Assembly: GCA_021324755.1 (NCBI GenBank) | Contig: JAJPIL010000028.1 | Location: forward strand, 62,001-126,000 | Origin: Pseudomonadota bacterium | GTDB lineage: Bacteria; Desulfobacterota; Binatia; Binatales; Binataceae | Direction of reading: 5' to 3' | Length of the DNA stretch: 64,000 nt | Part shown: positions 14,353 to 54,056 of the stretch, one piece after another | Layout: every line of letters begins with the position of its first letter | Position numbering within the stretch: the stretch's first letter is position 1 | The notes under the pieces: generated by a model | The model's database searches: none | What the model was told of the DNA's origin: nothing | Seen by the model: the letters and a program-made list of their open reading frames with translations, nothing else | Made by a program: the position numbers and the translations under genes

Positions 14353-17300
14353 ATGAGACCAACGAACAGCGAATCGCAAGTGGCGACGAAGGGAGCGGCT
14401 CTGCTCGCCTTCCTAAGAGAAAACGCAACGATTAGACGGCAGCGTGTCACCAAATACGGTGCTGGAGACAGGATCCTATGGTTCAAGGACGTCCCCAGAG
14501 AAGCTGCCGAGTGCCGGTCCCCCTTCCTATCACATAGGCCGGATGATCTGGGTGAACTGTGGTTAGAGGTACGCAAACCTCCCATGCCTACTCGACCACC
14601 GGAGCCGGCAGAAGTCAAAGATTGGGTCCGGGCCGACGCCCTAAACCAGGCGGAGAAAGCGCCCGAACTTCGCCCTGAAATCACTGTCATCGTCAAACGG
14701 CAAGTGCCTGACCCAGATGCACCTCAGGGCAGCAAAAGGATGATCGTCGAAGAAGTCCCAGAGATTCGTCGGCTCGAGGATCATCCTGAGGTCGAGGAGG
14801 TCTGGCTTCAGTATCTGATTGAGAAGTGGGAACCCTGGGCGGAAAAGATGCGCCGATGGCAGAAGGTGCAAGATGTCTACGAAACTGTCGACTTCATGCG
14901 ACGCCGGCTCGAAGAGGCTGAGGAACGGTACGAGCTTGTGCTTGCGATCGGGTTATTGCAGTGGCGAGATCCGACTGGCACGGATATCAAACGGCACGTT
15001 CTGACCGCGCCCGCAGAGTTCGCATTCGATGCATCACGTGGTGTGTTGACTGTTGTGCCAGCCGCCTCCTTCGAGGGTTTCCGGGTCGAGCTTGACATGC
15101 TCGATTTCAAGCACCGCCCACGGCTCGATGAGGACGAGCTCGAAAGACTTCTCGAAGAGCTCGACGTCCAGGCCTGGGACACCGCTTTGGTTGCTCCAAT
15201 CTTGCGCGAGATCGCAAACCGTCTCAGATCCGACGCACTGGTCGACGACGTGTTTCAGCCCGCCGATCGTATTGAGGAACGCCCGCGGATATCGTTTGCA
15301 CCAGCTCTCGTACTTCGCGAACGGAACCCTACAGCTTACGACGACTTAGTTTGCAAACTCCACGAGGCCGCTCAGTCTGGTGAGCTAAAGCCGACAGAAC
15401 CGTGGGCGCGTCTGCTCCGGGAAGGCGAGCCCGCGAATCCTGGCCAAAACGCTCTTAGCTTTGTCCCGCAGGATCCTAGAGTGAGTGTGGAAAGCTTGGA
15501 ACGCATCCTCTTCCCAAAACCAGCCAACGAGGAACAGCGACAGATCGTGCAACGACTTGAGACGGATCCGTGTGTCCTCGTCAAGGGGCCGCCTGGAACA
15601 GGCAAAAGCCACACAATCGCAAATCTCATCTGTCACCTGCTTTCGCGGGGCGAGCGGGTTCTTGTGACCGCCCATGCGTCCCAAGCGCTCGATGTGCTGC
15701 GCGGGCTACTTCCGAAGGACATTAGGGACCTATGCGTAACGGCACTGGGTTCTTCCAGCAGTGACCAACGCCTACTCGAAGAGAGCGTTCGCGAAATTTT
15801 AAGGCGCAAGAACGAATGGCGTGGACCATCAGCTGCGCAGCAAGCGATCGAAGAAGTAGAGAAGCAACTTCGAAAGCTCGAGGACGAGTTGGCACGGGTT
15901 GAGCGTGACCTCAGGACCTTCCGAGAGGCAGAGACGTACCGGCACGAGCTGCCCGGCGGTTATGCGGGAACCCTTGCACAGATTGCGCGCATGGTGAGCC
16001 AGCAAAAGGAGGAGTACAGCTGGTTTCCCGAGCTGCCCGCGGATACCGAGTTTCCCCTTGACCCCTCGGAGAGCGAATTTCTTGTAGATGCCCAGGCGCG
16101 CTTCACGGCCGAGGCGCGCGCGGAGTTGGAGCTCGACCTCGGGGATGTGGAGCTTCCGAGTCCGGATGCGTTCCGGGAGCTGGTCGAGCGGGCAAGAAGC
16201 GCCGAAGAGAAAAGCCAGAGGCTGAGCCGAGGGGTGGACAGCTCCAAAGCGCATCTACTGGAGGGATTTGGAGTCCAACAACTCCGGAATGCCCGCGAAG
16301 CTGTGCAGAAACTTGCTGATGTTGCTGACCGTGCGGAGCGTGTCTTGGGTGAGATCACAGAGGCTGTCCTTGGTGACCTACTGGCTTCCACTCACGCTAA
16401 ATGGGTACGTCTTCTAAGAAACTTGGCAGGACTCGTGACACACGCTAACCAGTACCGGGAGGCACTCAGAGCGGTTCGGGTCAAGCTGTCAGATAACGTC
16501 ACGGAAAACCAACTAAAAAAAGACGTCGAGCGACGTCTGGCGCACCTGGAGGGTAGAGGCCGGAAAGGTTTTTGGATCTTTGCACCACGAGTTATACGGG
16601 ACACCCGCTACGTGGTCAATGCTTGCCTAGTCGATGGAGCGAAGGCCAAGGGGGTCGAGGAGCTTCGACGTGTTCGCGACTGGCTAGAGCTACGGAGCAA
16701 ACTTAGAGAGCTCGAAGAAGTATCGAACTCCTTGCTGCCTGGAATGTCGAACCCGACGCGAGCGCTTTCCCGCGCGAAAGAGCTGGTGGTGAAATTGAGG
16801 GAACTCTTGGAGTTTTTCGCTTCCGAGGAAGCAGACTCACTGGCGAGGGTTTTGGGCTCCAAGCGCACGGAACTTGTCTCCGCGGTTGGTCGCAGTGACT
16901 GGATCAAGGCGATCGATGGGATTCTAGCCTATCGAGAAGCCCGCGATCTTCAGAAGGAGTTCGACCGGCTCCTCGACGTCGTGCGCGGTTTGCGTCTAGG
17001 ATCGAAAGCCCATCCGTGCCTCAGCGCTCTCGAGGATGCCGCCCGCAGACGCGACGTGGCCATGTGGCGGACCGCCTGGGAGAAGCGAGAACAACTTCGG
17101 CAGGACAAACAGCGCCTCTCTCGCTACGACGCTTTGCTTGTGAGACTTGACGAGTCATGCCCAGGTCTGCGAGAGATCCTTTGCAACTCTGCAGGTGAAC
17201 CAGTCTGGCAAGACCGTGTCCGTAAACTTCGAGACGCCTGGAACTGGGCGGCTGCCTGTGCGTGGCTACGACGAGTCTCCAATCCGTCGGACTACGAGGC

Positions 17301-18990
17301 TCGCGTGCAGGACTACCACCGGTTACAGGACAAGATTCAGAGAGTTACACAGGAACTTGCTTCACTCCGTGCTTGGAAGGCTTTCTTCGACCGGTTGGAC
17401 CAAAAAACCATTCAAAGCCTGAAGGCCTGGACAAAGGCCATGAACAGGATCGGCAAGGGCACTGGAAAATACGCTTACCGCCATCGGCGCACGGCCCGAA
17501 AATATCTTATGGAATGCGTCCCGCGCATTCCGGCGTGGATCATGCCGTTTCACAAGCTTTGGGATTCAGTCGAGCCCCAGCCGGGCCTCTTTGACACGGT
17601 GATCGTGGACGAAGCGTCGCAGGCTGGTGTCGAGGCACTTCTTCTATTGCTCCTGGCAAAGCGCATCGTGGTCGTCGGCGACGACAAACAGAACAGCCCG
17701 GAGGCGGTGGGCATTCTCGAGGACGACATCGCACGGCTGGCCCATGAGCACCTGAGAGAATTTCGGTTTCGGGACGAATTTCGACCGGATACTAGCCTTT
17801 TCGATCACGCGGAGCGAACCTTTGGGCCTCACATCACCCTGCGCGAGCACTTCCGATGTGTGCCCGAGATCATCCGCTTCAGTAACGATTTGTGCTATCG
17901 AGACACGCCCTTGATCCCACTTCGCCAGCCTCCGCCAAAAAGGCTTCCGCCGCTTCTTTCGCGTTTCGTCGCTGAAGGTAGGTGTGAGGAAGGGGGATCA
18001 AAAATCCAAAATCGGGCCGAGGCCGAGGCCATTGTCGAAACTATTGTGAAACTGGTAGACGACCCCGCCTACGAGGGAAAGAGCATGGGGGTTATCGCGT
18101 TACAGGGGCACGCGCAGGCGCAGCTCATCGAGAAATTGCTAGCCGAAAGACTTTTGCCGAAGGTGATCGAAGAACGCCGCTTACGATGCGGCGAACCGGC
18201 CACTTTCCAGGGGGACGAGAGGGACGTTATTTTCCTTTCGTTAGTCATTGCACCGAATGTACATCCCCGAGCTCTCACACGCCTTCCCGACGAGCGGCGT
18301 TTCAACGTGGCAATGAGCCGAGCGCGCGATCAGGTTTGGCTCTTCTACAGTGCGAAACCCTCCGACCTCAGTGAGGAGGACCTCCGATTCAGATTGATCC
18401 AGTTTTTCGAGAATCCTCAAGTGGTGGATTTCGCTTTTGAGGAACTCGACCGCCTGGAGCGGGAAGCCAAAAGGCCACGACGACTCGGTACCCAACCTGA
18501 GCCCTACGAGAGCTGGTTCGAGGTTGATGTCGCGCTCAAGCTTTTGCGCCGAAAATTTAGGATCCGACCCCAGGTTGAAGTTGCCGGTTACCGCATCGAT
18601 CTAGTGGTTGAAGGTCTGGATAAGAGATTGGCTGTCGAGTGCGATGGTGATGCATGGCACGGCCCGGAGCAGTACGAGCGCGATATGGTGCGGCAACGGC
18701 AACTGGAACGAGCTGGCTGGAAGTTTGTGAGAGTGCGCGAGTCTGATTTTTATATCGATAAGGAGCGCGTTGTGACAGAGATCGTAGAGGCATGCAAGGA
18801 ACTTGGGATTCGGCCGGTGGATTTCGCCCCGGGGACTCAGCACGAGCCAACGAAAACCCCTCCGCAGGACGCTGGTCGCCCAGACAGAGTCTCTGCAGCT
18901 ATTGCAAGCGATGATTCCGAGGGAATTCTTCCTGAAGAGGGAAATTCGTCTTCGATTGTTGGGCCGTTCACCGGCTACTCCAAAACTTAG
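14353..18990 (+). CDS. SF1 (COG1112/AAA_12) helicase fused to a DUF559-like PD-(D/E)XK nuclease
   Basis: 1545 residues. Residues 1-390 are an uncharacterised N-terminal region. Walker A is GPPGTGKS at 412-419 with a following TAHASQALD. Residues about 490-1010 are mostly coiled coil inserted in the helicase. Walker B is VDEASQAG with D1086-E1087, motif III is VVGDDKQNSPEAVG, and motifs V-VI are FQGDERDVIFLS and R1316-FNVAMSRAR. Residues about 1380-1500 are a Vsr-like nuclease domain with D1416 (YRIDLVVEG) and E1429-x-D1431 (AVECDGDAWHG), as in DUF559/MTES_1575. Similar COG1112 helicases with other nuclease domains serve in anti-phage systems such as Mokosh. All key residues look intact. It stands alone, likely a one-gene system. 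Confidence 0.85.
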   Translation: MRPTNSESQVATKGAALLAFLRENATIRRQRVTKYGAGDRILWFKDVPREAAECRSPFLSHRPDDLGELWLEVRKPPMPTRPPEPAEVKDWVRADALNQAEKAPELRPEITVIVKRQVPDPDAPQGSKRMIVEEVPEIRRLEDHPEVEEVWLQYLIEKWEPWAEKMRRWQKVQDVYETVDFMRRRLEEAEERYELVLAIGLLQWRDPTGTDIKRHVLTAPAEFAFDASRGVLTVVPAASFEGFRVELDMLDFKHRPRLDEDELERLLEELDVQAWDTALVAPILREIANRLRSDALVDDVFQPADRIEERPRISFAPALVLRERNPTAYDDLVCKLHEAAQSGELKPTEPWARLLREGEPANPGQNALSFVPQDPRVSVESLERILFPKPANEEQRQIVQRLETDPCVLVKGPPGTGKSHTIANLICHLLSRGERVLVTAHASQALDVLRGLLPKDIRDLCVTALGSSSSDQRLLEESVREILRRKNEWRGPSAAQQAIEEVEKQLRKLEDELARVERDLRTFREAETYRHELPGGYAGTLAQIARMVSQQKEEYSWFPELPADTEFPLDPSESEFLVDAQARFTAEARAELELDLGDVELPSPDAFRELVERARSAEEKSQRLSRGVDSSKAHLLEGFGVQQLRNAREAVQKLADVADRAERVLGEITEAVLGDLLASTHAKWVRLLRNLAGLVTHANQYREALRAVRVKLSDNVTENQLKKDVERRLAHLEGRGRKGFWIFAPRVIRDTRYVVNACLVDGAKAKGVEELRRVRDWLELRSKLRELEEVSNSLLPGMSNPTRALSRAKELVVKLRELLEFFASEEADSLARVLGSKRTELVSAVGRSDWIKAIDGILAYREARDLQKEFDRLLDVVRGLRLGSKAHPCLSALEDAARRRDVAMWRTAWEKREQLRQDKQRLSRYDALLVRLDESCPGLREILCNSAGEPVWQDRVRKLRDAWNWAAACAWLRRVSNPSDYEARVQDYHRLQDKIQRVTQELASLRAWKAFFDRLDQKTIQSLKAWTKAMNRIGKGTGKYAYRHRRTARKYLMECVPRIPAWIMPFHKLWDSVEPQPGLFDTVIVDEASQAGVEALLLLLLAKRIVVVGDDKQNSPEAVGILEDDIARLAHEHLREFRFRDEFRPDTSLFDHAERTFGPHITLREHFRCVPEIIRFSNDLCYRDTPLIPLRQPPPKRLPPLLSRFVAEGRCEEGGSKIQNRAEAEAIVETIVKLVDDPAYEGKSMGVIALQGHAQAQLIEKLLAERLLPKVIEERRLRCGEPATFQGDERDVIFLSLVIAPNVHPRALTRLPDERRFNVAMSRARDQVWLFYSAKPSDLSEEDLRFRLIQFFENPQVVDFAFEELDRLEREAKRPRRLGTQPEPYESWFEVDVALKLLRRKFRIRPQVEVAGYRIDLVVEGLDKRLAVECDGDAWHGPEQYERDMVRQRQLERAGWKFVRVRESDFYIDKERVVTEIVEACKELGIRPVDFAPGTQHEPTKTPPQDAGRPDRVSAAIASDDSEGILPEEGNSSSIVGPFTGYSKT

Positions 18991-20138: not shown

Positions 20139-22955
20139 TTACCGCGGGTCGATTCGAATGGAAGAAAGATAGTTAGAGAGAGTTTGTATGAGACGCCTGA
20201 TTTCTTCGAGGTTTTCTCCCTCTGCGGCTATTTCTAACGCCTGCCCAACCTTACTCATCACCTCGAAACCCATCATCTGGCCATCGCCTTTGATCCTGTG
20301 TCCGAGAGCTCGAATTGTCGCGTAGTCGCGATGCTTCGAAGCGTCTAGTAATTGAGCCAGGTCTTGGCGCTTTCGTGTAATAAATTGGGGCATGAGCGAT
20401 CCTAGGTCTGGCGGAACGACCTCCGCCACTTGACTCTGATTACCCGAGCGATTATCAGCCGACAGCGGTAAACTGAGCGACATCGAGCGCCCTGCGTTCC
20501 GCGCTTGTTCAAGCACCTCAAGAAGCGTTCTTTTGCGCACCGGCTTGGCGATGTAACTATCGCATCCTGCCTCAAAACACTTCGATATGTCCTCGCTCAA
20601 AGCTGAAGCCGTAAGCGCAACTATAAAGGCGCGCGACTCACCGTTCTGCTGCTCCCATTGCCTAATCAGCCTCACTGCGGTGTATCCGTCCATCACCGGC
20701 ATCTGAATATCCATCAGGACGACGTCATAGCCCGTTGCGGCTTTGCGCGCGGCAATGAAGCGTTCAACCGCCTTCTCGCCATTCTCTGCGAAATCGAGCT
20801 TATGGGGCGTGTTTTTAAGGTAGGCACTGATAACGAACTTATTGTCCTCAGAATCCTCGGCGAGCAAAATGCTCAATGGCGCATCGAACGCCTCTGCTAC
20901 AGCGTCACCCGCCTGGGTTTGCAAAGATGCCTGCGCAAATTCCCGCTTGCCACCGAGTACCTTGCCGACGACCGACAGCAGGTCCGCGCGCCTTACCGGT
21001 TTAACGATATAGTAATCCACGCCCAGCGCTTCAGCCCGCTTGACCTGCTCGTTCAAATGAGCCGTCGTTAGCATCATAATGATCGGGAGCGCACCGATTC
21101 CGTCGCCGGCCAACGCACGATTCTTTACGTTCTCTACCAGCTGGAAGCCATCCGGATCGGATATAGTGCTGTCGATGATGAGAAGTCCGTATGGAGCGCC
21201 GATTTCGATAGCCCGCTCGAGCTTTGCCAAAGCCTGTTCGCTGCTAGATGCCCCCTCGATTTCCGCTCCGCTTTCTGAAAGGATTTCCTTGACAACTTCT
21301 TGATTAAGCTCGCTGTCGTCGACCACTAATACCCTAAGCCCCTCCAGACGAAGCGCTTCATCCCATTCACCCTTGGGTTTGTCGGCCCGCAATGCGTCCG
21401 TTTGCACTCGGAACGGCAGAATGACGTGAAAAGTGCTTCCTTTTCCTACTTCGCTTTCCACCCAAATCGAGCCGCCCTGCAACTCGACTAGGCGCTTTAC
21501 TATCGCGAGCCCAAGTCCCGCACCCCCAAATCGGCGCGTGGTGGAGGAGTCGGCTTGGGCAAAGCTGTCGAAAATCGTCTGAAGCCGGGTCTGCGGAATT
21601 CCGATTCCAGTATCGGACACGGTAAAGTGCAACCACGATCGGTTGGCGTCCGCCGAGTCAGTTGTCGATACGCCGGAAACTCCCTCCTCGGTAGACGGTT
21701 GTGCCACTGCTACGGAGAGTAGGACCTGGCCGGCCGAGGTGAATTTAATGGCGTTGCTCAGCAGGTTCGTCAAAATCTGGGTAAGCCGCAATGGGTCTCC
21801 GATCAGAGCGGTAGGGACTTGGGGTTCAATACGCGCGATCAGCTCAAGTCCTTTCTCGTGGGCCAAAATCGCCGTATCACTGACAAGTTGTTCAACTAAG
21901 CGGTCCAGCTCGAAATTGGCGCTTTCGAGCTCAATACGGCCGCTTTCGATCCGGGCCAAATCGAGCACGTCCGAAATCAGCGCTAACAAGGCGCTAATGT
22001 TAGACCGCATGACCTCGAGGAACCTGCGCTGCTCGCCGGTAAGTGCCGTCTCGGACAAAAGCTCGGCCATTCCGAGAATCACGTTTACGGGCGTGCGAAT
22101 TTCATGCGACATGCTCGAGAGAAATTCCGACTTCGCCTTCGACGCCGCAAGCGCGTCCTCGCGCGCCCTGACCAGTTCCTCCTGAATTCGTTTAAGCTCG
22201 GTGAGGTTTTCTCGAAGCTTCTGTTCAGCCTCGACGCGACGGGCTATTTCCATCCGCAACCGCTCGCCACTCTCGGTAAGCTGCTTGACGTGTCGATCCT
22301 GCTCGCGCGAATATTCGGCTAGCCATGAAGCGCTCTGCGCCAAAGCGGCGGCGAAAACCAAACCGAACCAATGCAGCGCCATCACGTCGCTCCCCGGCGG
22401 AACCAGAACGTCATTCAGCGCCATGTCAGCGATTACAACTATGTTGAGCGCTGCCTGCCATCTGAAACCCCAGGGCACAAGCAAGGCCGTACCGAAGACC
22501 ATCAGAAGAAGCGACACGAACAGGGCCTCAGTTAAGTTCCCCCCGACAACGTTCTTCGCGGTGGCGTTGACAACGACAAGGCAGCACGCAATGAACATCG
22601 TGACGGGCCACCATCGCCTAAACTTAGGACTGGCGCTGAGCGCGAGAACAACGACGGCCACCACCGTGTTGAAGCCATGGTACCAGGCTAGCCTTGCCAA
22701 AGGCTCCACACCTAAAGATAGCTGCGAAAAAAAGCGCAGCAGCTGTGATACGATTACGATGACGGCAAATATACGAAGCAAACGAACGGGATCGGAACTC
22801 AGCACATAACTAACAGCGTAAAAAGCGCGCAACTTATTGTCGCTGCCGTTCGATTTTTTTCTACTTTCATAGTCGCTATTCTCCTGTCCCATCTCCGATT
22901 CAAACGCTTTCAAACTTTGCACAGCACGCCACCGCCACTTATCTGACGTTCTCAA
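20139..22955 (-). CDS. Hybrid histidine kinase, HisKA-HATPase-REC-REC-HPt
   Basis: 938 residues from TTG 22955 (ATG 22892 is an alternative; neither has a clear ribosome site). About six hydrophobic segments in residues 58-212 form a membrane sensor, followed by a coiled coil. The H box is SMSHEIRTPVN with H284; the ATPase has NLLSNAIKF, DTGIGI and GGAGLGLAI. A first receiver (541-660) has D595 in an unusual LIIDSTISDPDGF; a second (695-815) has D749 in LMDIQMPVMDG. The HPt module has H886 in LGHRIKGDG. Such ArcB/BarA-type kinases relay phosphate H-D-H to a separate regulator, which is not present nearby. The stimulus is unknown. Confidence 0.93.
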   Translation of the reverse strand: MRTSDKWRWRAVQSLKAFESEMGQENSDYESRKKSNGSDNKLRAFYAVSYVLSSDPVRLLRIFAVIVIVSQLLRFFSQLSLGVEPLARLAWYHGFNTVVAVVVLALSASPKFRRWWPVTMFIACCLVVVNATAKNVVGGNLTEALFVSLLLMVFGTALLVPWGFRWQAALNIVVIADMALNDVLVPPGSDVMALHWFGLVFAAALAQSASWLAEYSREQDRHVKQLTESGERLRMEIARRVEAEQKLRENLTELKRIQEELVRAREDALAASKAKSEFLSSMSHEIRTPVNVILGMAELLSETALTGEQRRFLEVMRSNISALLALISDVLDLARIESGRIELESANFELDRLVEQLVSDTAILAHEKGLELIARIEPQVPTALIGDPLRLTQILTNLLSNAIKFTSAGQVLLSVAVAQPSTEEGVSGVSTTDSADANRSWLHFTVSDTGIGIPQTRLQTIFDSFAQADSSTTRRFGGAGLGLAIVKRLVELQGGSIWVESEVGKGSTFHVILPFRVQTDALRADKPKGEWDEALRLEGLRVLVVDDSELNQEVVKEILSESGAEIEGASSSEQALAKLERAIEIGAPYGLLIIDSTISDPDGFQLVENVKNRALAGDGIGALPIIMMLTTAHLNEQVKRAEALGVDYYIVKPVRRADLLSVVGKVLGGKREFAQASLQTQAGDAVAEAFDAPLSILLAEDSEDNKFVISAYLKNTPHKLDFAENGEKAVERFIAARKAATGYDVVLMDIQMPVMDGYTAVRLIRQWEQQNGESRAFIVALTASALSEDISKCFEAGCDSYIAKPVRKRTLLEVLEQARNAGRSMSLSLPLSADNRSGNQSQVAEVVPPDLGSLMPQFITRKRQDLAQLLDASKHRDYATIRALGHRIKGDGQMMGFEVMSKVGQALEIAAEGENLEEIRRLIQTLSNYLSSIRIDPR

Positions 22956-28196: not shown

Positions 28197-31100
28197 CTAC
28201 TTTGCTGGCTTCAAATGCGGCAAAGCCTTGTGAGGCAGGTTTTCTGGCTCTTCGCAACGCACAGCCTTGCTCAAGTCCGCCACTGGCTTAAGCGAAAGCG
28301 CGTCAGGAACAAGGTCCTCGGGGATCAAATCCAACGGCAGTTCTATAACGCCTACCAGCGCTGAAACTACGCTACCGAAGAGGTCAGGACTGACATCGAG
28401 CGACTTAGGAGTTCCGCTCACCAAAATGTCGACCGAAAATACCTTGTCGAAAAATTTGACCAGCTGGGTACTAATTAGCGGCGTAAAGTGCAAGAGCCAT
28501 CTCGACGTCGTGAACGGCATCGCTCGCAAATGGAGCTGAATTGCGTTTTCAGGCATTTTCACCACGCCGTGACCGGTCACACGAATGACCGGGCCAACGA
28601 GCAACAGGTTATCCACCGTTATCTCGGGCTTCGAAAAGCTCAGCTCAGTGTACAACTTGTCAAACGGAAGGCCGACCGTATCGAGATCGGGTGGTCGCAG
28701 TTTTATCCAGCTCTCCAAATTCACAAGCTGGATCAGCCGCACTAAAAAATCCGCCTTGCCCAAGCTTCCGTTTGAAACTGCAATGGTGGCCCCTCCGCAC
28801 GAGAGGACCGGTTGTTTTCCTCCACCTTCAAATTCTACTCCGGCGTTAACCGCAAGGCTGAGCTCTCCGGAGATCGGCGGCTTGTCCTTCCATCCCATAG
28901 CCATAAACAGGGCACGGGCATCAAGGGTACGCGCCGCGCCACTAAGATAAAGCATCCGCCCGCTAGCCTGCCACATGCCGGATATGTCAACCGAGCCCTT
29001 AAAGCCGTTGGCGTGAAAGTTCTTGACAATCCAATCGTCATTCTTGTAATCAAGCTCTCCCCGCACGTCAGTTAACTCGACATTTTCGAAAAATACTTTG
29101 TTGACGGCCACAGTGCCGGCAAGTGGCGGAATCCATGTTGAACCCTGCTTAGCAGTTCCTTCTTTGACGCCGCTGCCGTCATGTGCACTTGCGTGAAAAG
29201 GTTTTGACCGTTCCGTGCTCGCACCGTGCGCTAGCGCCGGCTTGAATGCAGCTAAATCGAAACTTTTTCCGGAAACGACGAAACTGACCGCGGGACGCTG
29301 TAAATCGGGAACCTCGACACGGACGTCGAAGTCGCCAGCGCCAACAATAACGTTGCTTAACGCCGCCTGAGCCCGAAATCTATCTACGGTCAGCGTGACG
29401 GTTCGCACCAAGGCCGGCCCCGACGTAAAGGGCGACGCAACGGAGAGATTGCTTACTTCAATCGATCCGTCGATCGTTGGAATGTCACGTTCAAGCGCCC
29501 ATACGAGCGCTATCCGACCTTTCGCTTTGCCCGAAACCTTTACATCTGAAAAGCTACTCCCATCGCCAACCATCAAGAGCAGCTGCTCGAGGTTGACACC
29601 GTTTAAGCGGCTGAATGCGCGAACAGTGCGCGTGGAATGTACAAAGCTTCCGTTCGTGTCAATCCTCGTGCCACCAAGAGTTGAAGCATGCAATGTAAAA
29701 TCCAACTTCTTGTTGTCGTCACTCGCACGTCCACTGAAGTTAACGCCGTTTGCGTTTCCTTTTTTATTAATTCCAAGAAATCCGCGCCTCAACTCTAACC
29801 AGGAACGCGTAAGCTGATAGCCGCGCTCATCGGTATGGAGTCTTCCCCCAGAGCTTATTTGCACATAAAGAGGCGTGCTGCTGAGCAGTAGAGGCCTCAA
29901 CTTTTCCGGGAGCATTAGCTTTATGTCCGGGTCGGAAACGTCGAGTTTCACAAAAGTTTCCACGAACATTTCTATATCAGGAAGTTCTTTCCCCGAAGCA
30001 CCAGAAAGGTTTCCGCGAAAGCGTCCTTCGGTAAGCTGAATCGACCCCAGCTGAGCCTCTAGCGACACGGCTTGAAGCCCGTCTTTGTCAACCCTGATTT
30101 CTACTGGACGGCGCAATCTAAAGTGAGACACGGCTCTGGGAAATCGCTCGTTCTCCAGATCTGCCGCTGCGATCTCGACGCTCAAGTTTGACGTCTTTGC
30201 AGCAGCGGCGATAGCGCAGGACGTATCGGCACATCGCACGAGCGCTTCGCGCAACGACTTCACTCGAAACCCCCACTGCGCTCGCCTTACGGCGATCGAA
30301 CCATGGACCGCGGAAAACACGCCAGCTCCAAAGGCTCGCCCCATAGCCTCCAGGTCGAGTGCAAATCCTCCGAGGACAAGACTGAAGGCTGGGTCGATCG
30401 AAAACGGGTTTGCCAAAAGCGCCGTAACTTTAATGTCACGACTTACTCCGACGGCGGGCGGGGCCTTGACCGTCGCTTTTAAATCAAGAGCGGCCTGGGA
30501 CATGGCATACGAAGCGTCGACCATGACGCTTCCGATTTTAGGCAAATTGGAAATCTCAAAAGTCGTACCGCCGTCAAACTGAAACGTCCGAGCCAAAGAA
30601 AGACCCAGATGGCCCGCAAACCCTACAGCGCCAGCCCGGCTGAATTCGGCGCTTAGCCGAATAGGCTTGTCACTTTGGCTGTCGCTTGCTTCGATCGCCA
30701 GCTTCGCCGAAATAGAAAGGCCGCTAACTGAAGGACCGTTCCAAATCAAGCGCTCGATTTCGACGTTCACCGTCTTTGCGCTGGCGCTAATAGCTCCATC
30801 CAGATCAACCTTGGGGACACTACCGTCGCTTTGCGTTAAGTCTCCAAGGATGATGCGCCCATGGACGATATGGGCGGTCTGCAGAAAGCGGGCCGCTTGA
30901 CCACAGACCGTTCGAACTCTTAGCAGGTATGAGTCGAGCTCTTGTTCCAAGTCATGCGAGCTTTGAGGCTGCTCCTTTGCCGTCGTGATCTCGATAACTG
31001 GCCTTATCAGTGTGACTGACTTGAGCGGTAACACTCGGTCGTGAACGAGTCCGCCGTAGCTGGCAAGCACTTCCACCCGGTCGACGCGATATGAGATGCC

Positions 31101-31337
31101 CTTGTAGGTGAAGCTGACTTGGTCGACGCTGACGTTAATTCCCCGAGTCGAAAGCCCCGCGTCGAACTGCGAGAACTTTATGTCGATACCTGTTTTCGCA
31201 CTTACCGCGGCCAAAACCCGCCGCGCTAGCTCCGTTCGATGACGCACCGCCCAGACAAGCAAACACAAGCTTGCCACGAGCAGAAGAACTGCACCTATTA
31301 GGATGCTGAACAAAAGCCTTCTAACCGCCCGTATCAA
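28197..31337 (-). CDS. AsmA-like inner-membrane-anchored envelope protein
   Basis: 1046 residues from TTG 31337, seven bases after a GGGAG. One N-terminal membrane helix (residues about 10-32, LLFSILIGAVLLLVASLCLLVWAV) anchors a very long beta-rich periplasmic body. The early VLAAVSAKTGIDIKFSQFD block and the C-terminal region (NNLLLVGPVIRVTGHGVVKMP, then LHLRAMPF and a phase ending in LVSGTPKSLDVSPD) are typical of AsmA/TamB/YhdP proteins. These form hydrophobic grooves bridging the envelope for phospholipid transport. It is convergent with the VTT gene and transcribed alone. Confidence 0.82.
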   Translation of the reverse strand: MIRAVRRLLFSILIGAVLLLVASLCLLVWAVRHRTELARRVLAAVSAKTGIDIKFSQFDAGLSTRGINVSVDQVSFTYKGISYRVDRVEVLASYGGLVHDRVLPLKSVTLIRPVIEITTAKEQPQSSHDLEQELDSYLLRVRTVCGQAARFLQTAHIVHGRIILGDLTQSDGSVPKVDLDGAISASAKTVNVEIERLIWNGPSVSGLSISAKLAIEASDSQSDKPIRLSAEFSRAGAVGFAGHLGLSLARTFQFDGGTTFEISNLPKIGSVMVDASYAMSQAALDLKATVKAPPAVGVSRDIKVTALLANPFSIDPAFSLVLGGFALDLEAMGRAFGAGVFSAVHGSIAVRRAQWGFRVKSLREALVRCADTSCAIAAAAKTSNLSVEIAAADLENERFPRAVSHFRLRRPVEIRVDKDGLQAVSLEAQLGSIQLTEGRFRGNLSGASGKELPDIEMFVETFVKLDVSDPDIKLMLPEKLRPLLLSSTPLYVQISSGGRLHTDERGYQLTRSWLELRRGFLGINKKGNANGVNFSGRASDDNKKLDFTLHASTLGGTRIDTNGSFVHSTRTVRAFSRLNGVNLEQLLLMVGDGSSFSDVKVSGKAKGRIALVWALERDIPTIDGSIEVSNLSVASPFTSGPALVRTVTLTVDRFRAQAALSNVIVGAGDFDVRVEVPDLQRPAVSFVVSGKSFDLAAFKPALAHGASTERSKPFHASAHDGSGVKEGTAKQGSTWIPPLAGTVAVNKVFFENVELTDVRGELDYKNDDWIVKNFHANGFKGSVDISGMWQASGRMLYLSGAARTLDARALFMAMGWKDKPPISGELSLAVNAGVEFEGGGKQPVLSCGGATIAVSNGSLGKADFLVRLIQLVNLESWIKLRPPDLDTVGLPFDKLYTELSFSKPEITVDNLLLVGPVIRVTGHGVVKMPENAIQLHLRAMPFTTSRWLLHFTPLISTQLVKFFDKVFSVDILVSGTPKSLDVSPDLFGSVVSALVGVIELPLDLIPEDLVPDALSLKPVADLSKAVRCEEPENLPHKALPHLKPAK

Positions 31338-50480: not shown

Positions 50481-52703
50481 GTGGCCGAGCCAACCGCCGA
50501 ACAAGCCCTCAGGAGCGCTGAACAAAAGCGCCGCAAGCGCGAGCTCGTGGTCGTGTGCGCGAGCGCCGCGATGCTGGTTTTGTTTGCGCTGGCCGAAACC
50601 CTTCTGCCGCCTTTTACTCAGCGAACCTCGCTGAGCTCAAATATCGTGGTGATCCTACTCTTCAACCTAAGCTTCATTCTCGCAGGCTTGCTAGTGTTCC
50701 TGGTTGGGCGAAATCTGGCCAAGGTCATCTTCGAGCGTCGCAGCGGGATGATCGGCTCGAAGCTCCAGGCTCGCCTGGTGGTCGGGTTCGTTGCCGCAAG
50801 CCTTTTCCCCACTCTGTTTTTGCTCTACGTCGCCGAGTCATTTTTGCGAGCCAACATTAACGCTTGGTTCGACCCGGAATATCAGAGAGTGCTCGACGAT
50901 TCCCTGGCGATCGCCAAGACCTATTATCTCAACGCTGCGAATCAGGCGCTCCATTACGCGCGCGAGCTTGCTCTGCAAATCTCTACGCAAGAGCTTCTCG
51001 ATGGGAGCAAGCGCGCTTTGCTCAAACGCTTTGTCGAAGTGAAACAAGGCGAGTACGGTTTAGGAACAATCGAGGTCTTCTCAGCCGACGGCCATCTGAT
51101 CGTGTTACAGCTAAGCCCGCAAACTCCTCCCAAAATCGAAGTTCCTCCGGGCTCTGTGTTTCTTTCAAGGGTACTGCATGGGGAGGCGTTGTCGCTTACG
51201 GAACATTTAGGCAGGTCAGACGTAATTCGCGGAGGAGCACCGATTTTTGTCAAGCCCGACTCCGAAACCGTGCTTGGGGCAGTTGTCGTCGATTACTACC
51301 TACCTCGAAGTCTAGTCAAGCGTGCGACCCTGGTCTCGCGAAGCTTCCATGATTATCTCCAATTGCGGACGCTGAAGAGACCGATTTTTCGTAGCTACAT
51401 CCTCGTTCTGGTGCTGATCGCTCTGGTCGTCGCATTACTAGGCAGTTGGTTCGGGATTTATCTCGCAAGAGGCATAACTGGGCCGATAAAGCTGCTTGCC
51501 CAGGGCACGCAGGCAGTGGCAAGCGGTGACTTAAATTACCAGATTACTCCTGTAGGCGACGACGAGATCGCGCATTTGGTGCGCTCGTTCAACCGGATGA
51601 CGGCCGACCTTAAAGCTTCGCAGGCCGAACTGGAAAGACGGCAGCGGGCAATCGAAACATTGCTCCACAAGGTACCGGCAGGTGTGGTAGCGATCGACGC
51701 GCAAGAGCGTTTGCTTACGATCAACCCTTGGGCTGAAAAGCTCCTCGGCGTTGTGGGAAAACCAGCGCTGGGTCGCCGCTGTCACGAGGTCCTGCCAACA
51801 CCGATAAGCAACATCCTCAAAGAGCGCCTGCGCGAGGGCAAACCGCTTGACGACCTGCGGTGTCCTGTCGTTTTGGACGACGGTTCGGCTGCGACCGAAT
51901 TAATGATGACCGTAACCCCGTTGGAAGGCGAGGGTGGAGCCGTCGCCGGCTACCTGCTGTTTTTCGAGGATGTCAGCCAAATCGCCAAGATAGAGCGCAT
52001 GGAGGCTTGGCGCGAAGTGGCTCGCAGAATTGCTCACGAAATCAAAAATCCGCTTACCCCGATTCGCTTGTGTGCTGAACGTATCCGGCGCAATCTGACC
52101 GGCTCGCTCACCTCGGACACAATCTCTCTCATCGACGATTGTAGTCGTACTATTCTGAACGAGGTCGAAGGGCTTAAACGCCTTCTGGACGAGTTCTCCT
52201 CTTTTGCTCGCCTACCTCACCTAAACCCAGTACCGGGAGACCTTAATGCTGTCGTGGTCGAGACGACCAGCAACTTTCGCAAAGCTCATCCTGATATTCA
52301 TTTTGAGCTCGATCTCGAACCCAATTTGCCCCCGATAATGCTCGACCGCGAAGCGATGAGGCGGGCTCTCGTAAATTTGCTCGATAACGCTGCAGCAGCT
52401 GTCGCGGAGCAACCTTCGCAGCCCTGGATCGGACTTAAAACTTTTCTCAATCCCGAAAGCGGCATTGTAACTTTAGAAGTTGCGGACAATGGCCCAGGTA
52501 TCAAGCCCCATCTCAAGACGCGAATTTTCGAGCCTTATTTTTCAACCAAAAAGGATGGAGCAGGTCTCGGGCTCGCCATCGTATCGGCGATCGTCGCTGA
52601 CCATCATGGCTTCGTCAGAGTGTGGGACAATGTACCCAACGGGACGCGATTCGTGCTAGAGTTCCCCATCAAACAGGCGCAGCTGGCGCGCGCCATCAGT
52701 TAG
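50481..52703 (+). CDS. ntrY: NtrY-type membrane sensor histidine kinase
   Basis: 740 residues from GTG 50481. Two N-terminal helix pairs (about 22-43, 55-78, 98-118) and another near 303-328 enclose an extracytoplasmic sensor (about 120-300). HAMP lies at about 328-375, PAS at about 390-500 (PAGVVAIDAQERLLTINPWA). The H box is RRIAHEIKNPLTPIRL with H519, and the ATPase has NLLDNAAAAV, DNGPGI and KDGAGLGLAI. Architecture and the AHEIKNPLTPIRL-S/C-A-E-R-I motif are those of NtrY. In the usual NtrY-NtrX pair the next gene is a REC-AAA-FIS regulator; here the next gene is REC-LpxC. Confidence 0.93.
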   Translation: MAEPTAEQALRSAEQKRRKRELVVVCASAAMLVLFALAETLLPPFTQRTSLSSNIVVILLFNLSFILAGLLVFLVGRNLAKVIFERRSGMIGSKLQARLVVGFVAASLFPTLFLLYVAESFLRANINAWFDPEYQRVLDDSLAIAKTYYLNAANQALHYARELALQISTQELLDGSKRALLKRFVEVKQGEYGLGTIEVFSADGHLIVLQLSPQTPPKIEVPPGSVFLSRVLHGEALSLTEHLGRSDVIRGGAPIFVKPDSETVLGAVVVDYYLPRSLVKRATLVSRSFHDYLQLRTLKRPIFRSYILVLVLIALVVALLGSWFGIYLARGITGPIKLLAQGTQAVASGDLNYQITPVGDDEIAHLVRSFNRMTADLKASQAELERRQRAIETLLHKVPAGVVAIDAQERLLTINPWAEKLLGVVGKPALGRRCHEVLPTPISNILKERLREGKPLDDLRCPVVLDDGSAATELMMTVTPLEGEGGAVAGYLLFFEDVSQIAKIERMEAWREVARRIAHEIKNPLTPIRLCAERIRRNLTGSLTSDTISLIDDCSRTILNEVEGLKRLLDEFSSFARLPHLNPVPGDLNAVVVETTSNFRKAHPDIHFELDLEPNLPPIMLDREAMRRALVNLLDNAAAAVAEQPSQPWIGLKTFLNPESGIVTLEVADNGPGIKPHLKTRIFEPYFSTKKDGAGLGLAIVSAIVADHHGFVRVWDNVPNGTRFVLEFPIKQAQLARAIS

Positions 52704-52766
52704 CACGCTAGAATTTAGTCAGCTCGCGTCATACGCGGGCACGCAGGATTGAGGGGTAGTGGTAAG

Positions 52767-54056
52767 GTGGGAGAAACGACGATTCTCGTAGTTGACGACG
52801 AGGACGGCATCCGCTCCTCGCTCAAAGGTATTCTTTCGGATGAAGGGTTCGCCGTGTTCGACAGCGGCGATTCCTCGAGTGCGCTTACGCTGATAGACCA
52901 ACTGCGTCCTCGCTTGGTCTTATTGGACGTCTGGATGCCCGAGGTCGATGGGATCGAACTCTTACGCAAAATAAAGCAGAGCTCCCCTCAAACCGACGTA
53001 ATAATGATCTCGGGCCACGGTAACATCCAAAGCGCGGTAACCGCGATAAAACTGGGAGCCGCTGACTTTATCGAAAAGCCGTTCTCAGTTGAACATCTTC
53101 TCAACACGATCGCCAGGGTCTTAGCTGATTCGTACGACGCTGACTGGGGAGCTCAAAAACCTAAAGCCGCGATTTCCGAGGGCATCCTCATCCAACCCGG
53201 TAGTTTTCCGACTTTGCGCCAAAAGACTATTAATCGGTCAGCGGTTCTGGCGGGGCAGGGCCTTCATTCAGGTCTAAAGACCGGGGTCATTCTTTATCCC
53301 GGGCCGCTCAACTCAGGTATCGTGTTCATGCCGCTGTCCTCTGACGTAACGATATTCGCCAAGGCAGAGAACGTGTCCGACACAGGTTACAACACCACGC
53401 TTTCATACGACGGCTACAGCGTGCGCACCATCGAACACTTGATGTCTGCGTTACACGGTTTCGGCATAACAAACCTTCTCATCAAAACCGAAGGGGAGGT
53501 TCCCGCGCTGGACGGCTCGGCCGTCGAGTTTTGCAAAGCGATCGCCGAAGTGGGCGTGCGCGAACAAGACGGGTTTATCGCGCCCGTCCAGGTCAAAGAA
53601 CCTATTTTGATAGGAGATTCCGCACGGCGCGGCAAATATATCCTAGTTGAGCCCGCCGATCGTCTGATCATCGACTACACGCTCGAATACCCGCCGCCAA
53701 TCGGAACTCAACGAGTTCATTTCGAACTGACGTCTCCAGAGGACTACATGCGAGAGATAGCCCCAGCGCGAACTTTTGGATTCGTCACCGAGATGAGTAA
53801 ACTTTCGGCGATGGGGCTTGCGCGGGGCGGCCGACTGGACAATTGCATCCTGGTGGACAACGAAAAGGTGATCAACACCGCCCTGCGATACGACAACGAA
53901 TTCGCTCGCCACAAGGTGCTCGATCTAATTGGAGACCTTTATTTGCTTGGACGGCCACTATGGGCGCACGTAACGGCATATAAAACCGGCCACTCCGATA
54001 ATCTGGCTTTGGTGCGCGCATTGTGGCAGCAGGCGGCGCGTGAATACCACCAGTGA
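52767..54056 (+). CDS. lpxC: Response-regulator receiver fused to LpxC (UDP-3-O-acyl-GlcNAc deacetylase)
   Basis: 429 residues from GTG 52767, ten bases after GAGGGG (TTG 52749 is an alternative with no spacing to a ribosome site). Residues 4-122 are a receiver: ILVVDDEDGIRSSL, phospho-acceptor D54 in LLDVWMPEVDG, ISGHG and K104 in FIEKPFS, closest to NtrX/NtrC receivers. After a linker, residues about 152-429 are LpxC: SAVLAGQGLHSG, TIEHLMSALHG with zinc ligand H224, ALDGSA, HKVLDLIGDL with H382 and D386, and KTGHSDN with catalytic H409. LpxC catalyses the first committed step of lipid A. No AAA or DNA-binding domain is present. The kinase gene lies 63 bases upstream. Confidence 0.95.
   Translation: MGETTILVVDDEDGIRSSLKGILSDEGFAVFDSGDSSSALTLIDQLRPRLVLLDVWMPEVDGIELLRKIKQSSPQTDVIMISGHGNIQSAVTAIKLGAADFIEKPFSVEHLLNTIARVLADSYDADWGAQKPKAAISEGILIQPGSFPTLRQKTINRSAVLAGQGLHSGLKTGVILYPGPLNSGIVFMPLSSDVTIFAKAENVSDTGYNTTLSYDGYSVRTIEHLMSALHGFGITNLLIKTEGEVPALDGSAVEFCKAIAEVGVREQDGFIAPVQVKEPILIGDSARRGKYILVEPADRLIIDYTLEYPPPIGTQRVHFELTSPEDYMREIAPARTFGFVTEMSKLSAMGLARGGRLDNCILVDNEKVINTALRYDNEFARHKVLDLIGDLYLLGRPLWAHVTAYKTGHSDNLALVRALWQQAAREYHQ

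Follow-up and report, generated by a model that had tools for sequence, protein, structure and literature searches.

An NtrX-type receiver domain fused to LpxC and paired with an NtrY-like kinase: a candidate enzymatic response regulator of lipid A synthesis in three bacterial phyla

The presence of a response-regulator receiver joined to LpxC directly behind an NtrY-like histidine kinase, in a 64,000-nucleotide stretch of DNA from a bacterium of the class Binatia (the whole of which we refer to as the window), raises the question as to whether a two-component system could act on the enzyme of lipid A synthesis itself. A sequence-only reading of this locus had placed a receiver-LpxC (REC-LpxC) gene after the kinase, with the D54 phosphorylation site and the zinc and catalytic residues of LpxC intact, and both open reading frames (ORFs), their Pfam domains and the residues themselves bear this out in the window protein, the residues being intact in all 108 fused proteins compared. 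The answer that we favour, and consider fairly probable, is that the protein arose from NtrX as an enzymatic response regulator and that NtrY would control the activity of the attached LpxC through receiver phosphorylation.

The ORF 52749-54056 matches Response_reg over residues 12-121 (106 bits) and LpxC (PF03331) over residues 158-426 (284 bits), with no AAA+ or FIS-type DNA-binding domain detected by Pfam. The NCBIfam lpxC equivalog TIGR00325 scores 250 bits against a cut-off of 187, and the window protein holds a complete LpxC with predicted deacetylase activity. Residue counts were made over 108 complete fused proteins, one per genome. The phospho-acceptor quintet of response regulators is present in the window receiver, and E223, H224, H382, K383, D386, D390 and H409 of LpxC are found in 108/108, the sole variation among the LpxC residues checked being one S at T336 and five Y at F337. 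We take E223/H224 to correspond to E78/H79 of the Escherichia coli enzyme, H382/D386 to H238/D242 and H409 to H265. The AlphaFold2 model of the fusion (mean predicted local distance difference test (pLDDT) 86.8, predicted template modelling score (pTM) 0.86) consists of two well-predicted domains, of which the LpxC half gives a target TM score of 0.94 when superposed on 2jt2, the LpxC of Aquifex. They are joined by a linker of about 29 residues that is mostly predicted to be disordered, with pLDDT below 50 over residues 122-145, and poorly conserved in sequence among fused relatives. A coiled coil between the receiver and LpxC, which had been suggested earlier, found no support as no helix is called in this disordered stretch.

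In order to see how widely REC-LpxC occurs, the architecture was searched for and mapped on trees, as the earlier reading had proposed, and it was found far beyond this locus, in three phyla. Among the 57 genomes of its own family and class, the window's included, LpxC was matched in 55 and always as a single copy; 46 of the 47 loci read are complete fusions and the other (L019) is truncated within the receiver by the end of its contig, while the remaining 8 genomes, whose locus was not read, show open frames of at least 418 amino acids. Searching with a profile of 23 fused proteins gave at least 57 fusions among 247 sampled genomes of the window's phylum. Among the matches listed, a single match covers both REC and LpxC in 38 genomes, 12 have a long frame, 6 a longer linker, and 1 runs into a contig edge; domains were confirmed in those that were fetched. 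In Nitrospinota 51/60 genomes show REC together with LpxC of the fused clade in frames of one length and 3 more the LpxC part only, with open frames of at least 675 amino acids in 48/54, and the fusion occurs in 4 of 149 Acidobacteriota genomes, counting the centre genome. A single LpxC was present in all 14 named fused genomes, and in the window genome (completeness 95.5%) likewise, where the fused copy is the only LpxC matched. In LpxC trees, which are unrooted and in which the closest canonical LpxC is not settled, a branch with 99% support in the Shimodaira-Hasegawa-like approximate likelihood ratio test (SH-aLRT) keeps the fused rows together on one side, and one change suffices in the 82-row tree. 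The row L066 falls on the fused side in one of these trees; it had been scored as free LpxC for no other reason than that its contig begins within the gene. These sequences point to one fusion clade kept across three phyla with the key residues of both halves. Other unusual LpxC proteins were also seen, namely a canonical-type LpxC in G260 with about 115 N-terminal residues lacking a Pfam match (L187:6998-8260) and two of about 440 amino acids with a C-terminal extension (L104:5995-7305 and L128:5992-7320) which are perhaps, we presume, LpxC-FabZ fusions.

The earlier reading held that the fusion stands in place of NtrX after NtrY, and several features of the receiver support this and carry it further. 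Its best NCBIfam receiver match is to the NtrX model NF051870, at 131.7 bits with only the receiver part covered and thus short of the curated cut-off of 600 bits, and the best PDB receiver matches are 4d6x and 5m7n, which we take to be Brucella NtrX. W56 is present in 64/64 short and 14/14 long fused rows and in 25/28 NtrX-like rows, and D25 is shared by every one of the 78 fused and the 28 NtrX-like rows, while neither occurs in any of the 14 other regulators of the window genome. A receiver tree placed 13 of these 14 in a separate group (98%), the fourteenth (L038) being a very long branch at the root; this tree is built on few columns, its long branches meet and most of its forks are weak, with fused and NtrX-like receivers intermixed, and was used solely for setting the genome's other regulators apart. 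By these marks the receiver of the fusion is of NtrX type. Together with relatives of REC-AAA-LpxC form, the NtrX-like residues suggest that NtrX itself was turned into REC-LpxC and not merely displaced.

These relatives (L061-L064, L169-L180) have approximately 270-350 residues between receiver and LpxC, and in all four long forms scanned with Pfam the segment is AAA+ sequence of NtrX type. In L062 the order is receiver, AAA+ parts, the FIS domain HTH_8 and LpxC; it is the only one of the four with HTH_8, the FIS part being lost from L063 and L064. Walker A is kept in 22/22 long forms (ending GKR and not GKE in L062) and GAFTGA in 0/22, in comparison with G[AS]FTGA in 30/30 NtrX/NtrC proteins taken from 36 loci with a Walker A filter, so that the long forms cannot be expected to activate sigma54. 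The Nitrospinota proteins L290-L293 align over nearly the whole NtrX profile at 430-472 bits with the GAFTGA stretch replaced. A short REC-LpxC is found in G474 (L289, contig C134), a 1.6 Mb Nitrospinota genome. This short form nests among the long Nitrospinota forms (100%), which makes at least one loss of the AAA+ domain inside the phylum probable. From the long forms and this placement, in trees that are unrooted, we infer the order NtrX to REC-AAA-LpxC to REC-LpxC. We think it on balance probable that a transcription factor (REC-AAA-FIS) passed stepwise through a REC-AAA-LpxC form without the sigma54 loop to REC-LpxC, so becoming a phospho-regulated version of the very enzyme whose gene is elsewhere under the control of its family, and that lipid A synthesis in three phyla is set by an envelope sensor through direct phosphorylation of the receiver on LpxC. 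Very long frames in five loci (L141, L151, L166, L190, L192) were considered as NtrY-REC-LpxC hybrid kinases and rejected, since Pfam finds only REC and LpxC in them and the kinase is an upstream ORF of its own in four, with none near L166; we read their extra length as open frame and not protein.

The window genome has no NtrX-type regulator that we could find (best NF051870 match 382 bits). Across genomes NtrX was called with NF051870 at E 1e-130, a threshold chosen post hoc from a gap between 1e-126 and 1e-136 that does not exist in Acidobacteriota. As only a control passes the curated cut-off in the genomes searched, 'NtrX' here denotes an NtrX-like group of approximately 440-550 bits. In the phylum set it is present in 0/28 fused versus 70/78 separate-lpxC genomes, a further 12 being unclear, and in a second set in 0/36 further fused genomes, G257 apart. 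The Fisher p calculated for the phylum set takes no account of relatedness among the genomes. Other phyla and unplaced named genomes gave 3/24 fused above the threshold and 12/12 separate, all of the latter Acidobacteriota. In sum 85/89 fused genomes lack a separate NtrX at this post hoc threshold. The pattern recurs within families, as in f38 (fused G082, G229 and G252 without NtrX; separate G118, G152, G179, G205 and G274 with it) and f59 (fused G184 without; separate G124, G156, G234 and G279 with). Two genomes are of mixed content: G257 has a canonical lpxC beside NtrY (L340, G257:C122), NtrX elsewhere and a divergent long-branched REC-LpxC near a contig end (L168, G257:C9), and G102, with 5% contamination, has a fused LpxC (L184, G102:C151) and a free lpxC beside NtrY (L341, G102:C302).

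The window kinase has hydrophobic segments near residues 19-45, 49-84, 97-122 and 298-332 and an H-box HEIKNPL at 519, and scores 22 bits with NtrY_N (PF19312), just short of the cut-off of 23.2. Among 84 NtrY-like rows, in which some genes are counted from two loci, the H-box is kept in all and a narrowly drawn N-box pattern matched 46. Wherever longer flanks were fetched for the class, a similar kinase abuts the fusion (18/18 distinct loci), as it does in 8 distinct long-form loci, and no NtrY was seen within 3 kb upstream of canonical lpxC in 63 loci, some with shorter flanks. A kinase like that of the window was found in 25/25 fused genomes searched from the phylum and in 23/24 elsewhere, the exception being G474, whose receiver may have another phosphodonor. 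In lineages with the kinase unlinked, partnership with the fusion rests on co-occurrence since the two are not adjacent. An unlinked NtrY has an NtrX within 1.5 kb, or before its contig ends, in 0/16 and 0/19 readable fused genomes; in separate-lpxC genomes the two genes adjoin in 3/3 and 4/4. The locus L303 (G296), where the contig ends just downstream of the kinase, was left out of this count. Among 17 free-LpxC loci (L329-L345, e.g. L331:1-4826) from the window's phylum and Acidobacteriota, chosen because lpxC and ntrX or ntrY shared a contig, 15 show the order lpxC-ntrY-ntrX on one strand, one of them with some 3.5 kb separating lpxC from ntrY, and 2 show lpxC-ntrY. This order in free-LpxC genomes argues that the link between lpxC and ntrY is older than the fusion or independent of it.

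Signalling through the receiver is supported by the retention of phospho-chemistry and catalytic residues, the loss of the transcription function and the near absence of a separate NtrX. In the mechanism that we propose NtrY, a membrane kinase/phosphatase, would phosphorylate and dephosphorylate D54, the phosphorylation state would change the signalling face of the receiver, and the changed face would alter LpxC activity through direct domain contact or dimerisation. In CheB phosphorylation relieves a restraint imposed by the unphosphorylated receiver, and by analogy our guess as to the sign is that the unphosphorylated receiver would restrain LpxC and phosphorylation relieve it. The same guess includes appreciable basal activity, since the fused LpxC is the only LpxC found in the cell. 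A regulator family that tunes lpxC transcription elsewhere would have become part of the enzyme, such that NtrY could act on LpxC in one step. We infer phosphotransfer, allostery and its sign. Residues peculiar to the fused LpxC may mark the contact with the receiver, or ancestry only; these are K240, found in 107/108 fused LpxC where canonical rows have E/D in 105/109 (a few repeated), and G173, C256 and P333.

A number of observations weigh against this mechanism. The disordered linker of the AlphaFold2 model shows no direct sign of a rigid regulatory contact. NtrY is unlinked to the fusion in many lineages and some kinase matches are weak, at 221-373 bits in Acidobacteriota and 318-350 bits in G082, G079 and G150, with no NtrY match at 1e-40 in G474, which has the fusion. 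Four fused genomes score for NtrX, namely G257 and three of the nine fused Acidobacteriota (G302, G390, G307), the kinase of G436 has an NtrX-like gene about 2.1 kb away, and 8/78 separate-lpxC genomes lack NtrX as well. Finally G102 and G257, both of the window's phylum and among the matches listed, also hold a free LpxC beside their NtrY.

With regard to the mode of control we rank activity first, abundance second and place third, an order that sequence does not decide. Abundance is placed second because the C-terminal tail of LpxC is lost: the residues past the end of the LpxC domain have a median of 4 (range 2-21) in the 108 fused proteins as against 28 (15-166) in 65 canonical ones, and in E. 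coli LpxC this end bears the FtsH degron. The receiver could take the place of the C-terminal degron, serving a protease as a degron or adaptor site that phosphorylation switches, much as the receiver proteins RssB and CpdR act as protease adaptors. Regulation in E. coli and Pseudomonas is described as acting mainly through LpxC protein level (PMC3333781). The linker is however poorly conserved and no degron is identified in it or in the receiver, where none was sought, and we regard this explanation as unlikely, if a serious one. A more doubtful proposal is that NtrY, by binding the receiver, places LpxC at the inner membrane, so that location matters and phosphorylation does not. NtrY does have membrane segments, and a recent review reports a suggested LpxC-localising role for the meningococcal LapB homologue (PMC12444477); a plain tether however would not need the phosphorylation quintet, which is kept with D10, D11, D54 and K104 invariant in 108/108 and position 82 S/T in 105 and C in 3. 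Some lineages lack a linked kinase, as might be expected were the receiver mainly a phosphate sink or cross-talk partner of other kinases with LpxC unaffected, but the maintenance of one clade in three phyla with key residues on both sides and the conversion of NtrX itself make this highly improbable. Drafts and assemblies from metagenomes make up many of the genomes, yet an error of assembly, which the earlier reading had named as a possible refutation, or else a frameshift or two genes read through by chance, is refuted by the same fusion in all 108 proteins and in 28/29 other own-family and class loci, including the one-contig 4.6-Mb class genome G050, and its probability is negligible. Control of LpxC activity by NtrY through the receiver thus stays our preferred reading.

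The features of the locus are collected in Table 1. The fusion frame opens at a TTG at 52749, with an alternative GTG start at 52767, 63 bp past the kinase stop; the latter agrees with the start in relatives and is preceded by GAGGGG, and is therefore probably where REC-LpxC begins. Elsewhere in the window we observed a 1545-aa protein (14353-18990, + strand) that combines AAA_11/AAA_12 helicase parts with an MTES_1575 nuclease domain and may serve in defence, a hybrid histidine kinase with two receiver stretches (20139-22955, - strand) and a 1046-aa protein with a YhdP-like region, of an envelope-related family (28197-31337, - strand).

Table 1 Features of the kinase and REC-LpxC locus in window coordinates
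Feature	Coordinates	Strand	Basis
NtrY-like membrane histidine kinase	50481..52703	+	ORF list; Pfam HAMP, PAS, HisKA, HATPase_c
Intergenic gap, 63 bp, GAGGGG ahead of GTG start, no gene inside	52704..52766	+	Direct reading
REC-LpxC fusion gene, 429 aa	52767..54056	+	Pfam, NCBIfam, alignment with relatives
Receiver domain, NtrX type, residues 5-120	52779..53126	+	Pfam, NCBIfam, PDB matches, residues, AlphaFold2
Phospho-acceptor codon D54 (GAC)	52926..52928	+	Direct reading; D in 108/108 fused proteins
Variable linker, residues 121-149 (122-145 predicted disordered)	53127..53213	+	Alignment, AlphaFold2
LpxC deacetylase domain, residues 150-420	53214..54026	+	Pfam, NCBIfam, AlphaFold2, structure superposition
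E223-H224, predicted catalytic base and zinc ligand	53433..53438	+	108/108 fused proteins
H382 and D386, predicted zinc ligands, K383 between	53910..53924	+	108/108 fused proteins
H409	53991..53993	+	108/108 fused proteins

If the proposed mechanism is true, the receiver would place the committed enzyme of lipid A synthesis itself under direct two-component control, which could explain regulation in lineages whose LpxC has no C-terminal tail. REC-LpxC and NtrY, once purified, would offer a two-protein system for testing how an envelope signal is coupled to outer-membrane synthesis, and a case of a transcription factor becoming a regulated enzyme with surviving intermediates. The sequence-only reading knew of no established description of such wiring, and we likewise found none of a fused LpxC receiver in the title or abstract start of the papers listed from the literature searched, whose coverage leaves out most subscription papers; the terms 'receiver' and 'response regulator' are absent from the text of a 2025 review (PMC12444477).

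The link between NtrYX and the envelope in alphaproteobacteria that had been invoked for this locus is in print and extends to lpxC, but as transcriptional control. Rhodobacter sphaeroides without NtrYX is reported to have lpxC transcript up 8.8-fold and approximately twofold lipopolysaccharide, with no NtrX site found upstream of lpxC (PMC7240162), and NtrYX is reviewed as inhibiting lpxC transcription in two alphaproteobacteria (PMC12444477). This repression in Rhodobacter and Caulobacter joins the same kinase-regulator family to the same enzyme as in REC-LpxC, although it is transcriptional and pleiotropic and is taken as indirect in R. sphaeroides. A further parallel is the response regulator DVU2934 of Desulfovibrio vulgaris, for which lpxC is the single mapped target; orthologues are reported from Geobacter and Acidobacterium, and in Syntrophobacter fumaroxidans lpxC sits directly upstream of the orthologous operon (PMC3333781). 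There too a response regulator is directed at lpxC, and as far as reported at lpxC alone, but control is by DNA binding and not by fusion. With NtrX the fusion shares the receiver type (NCBIfam, PDB, W56, D25) and the partner NtrY, and differs in having LpxC where NtrX has AAA+ and FIS, which are degenerate in the long forms. With canonical LpxC it shares fold and catalytic residues, and differs in the N-terminal receiver, the missing tail and its own side of the 99% SH-aLRT branch. The design is that of enzymatic response regulators such as CheB, with a receiver joined by a linker to an enzyme; unlike in these, the output is a house-keeping and probably essential biosynthetic enzyme and not a signalling enzyme.

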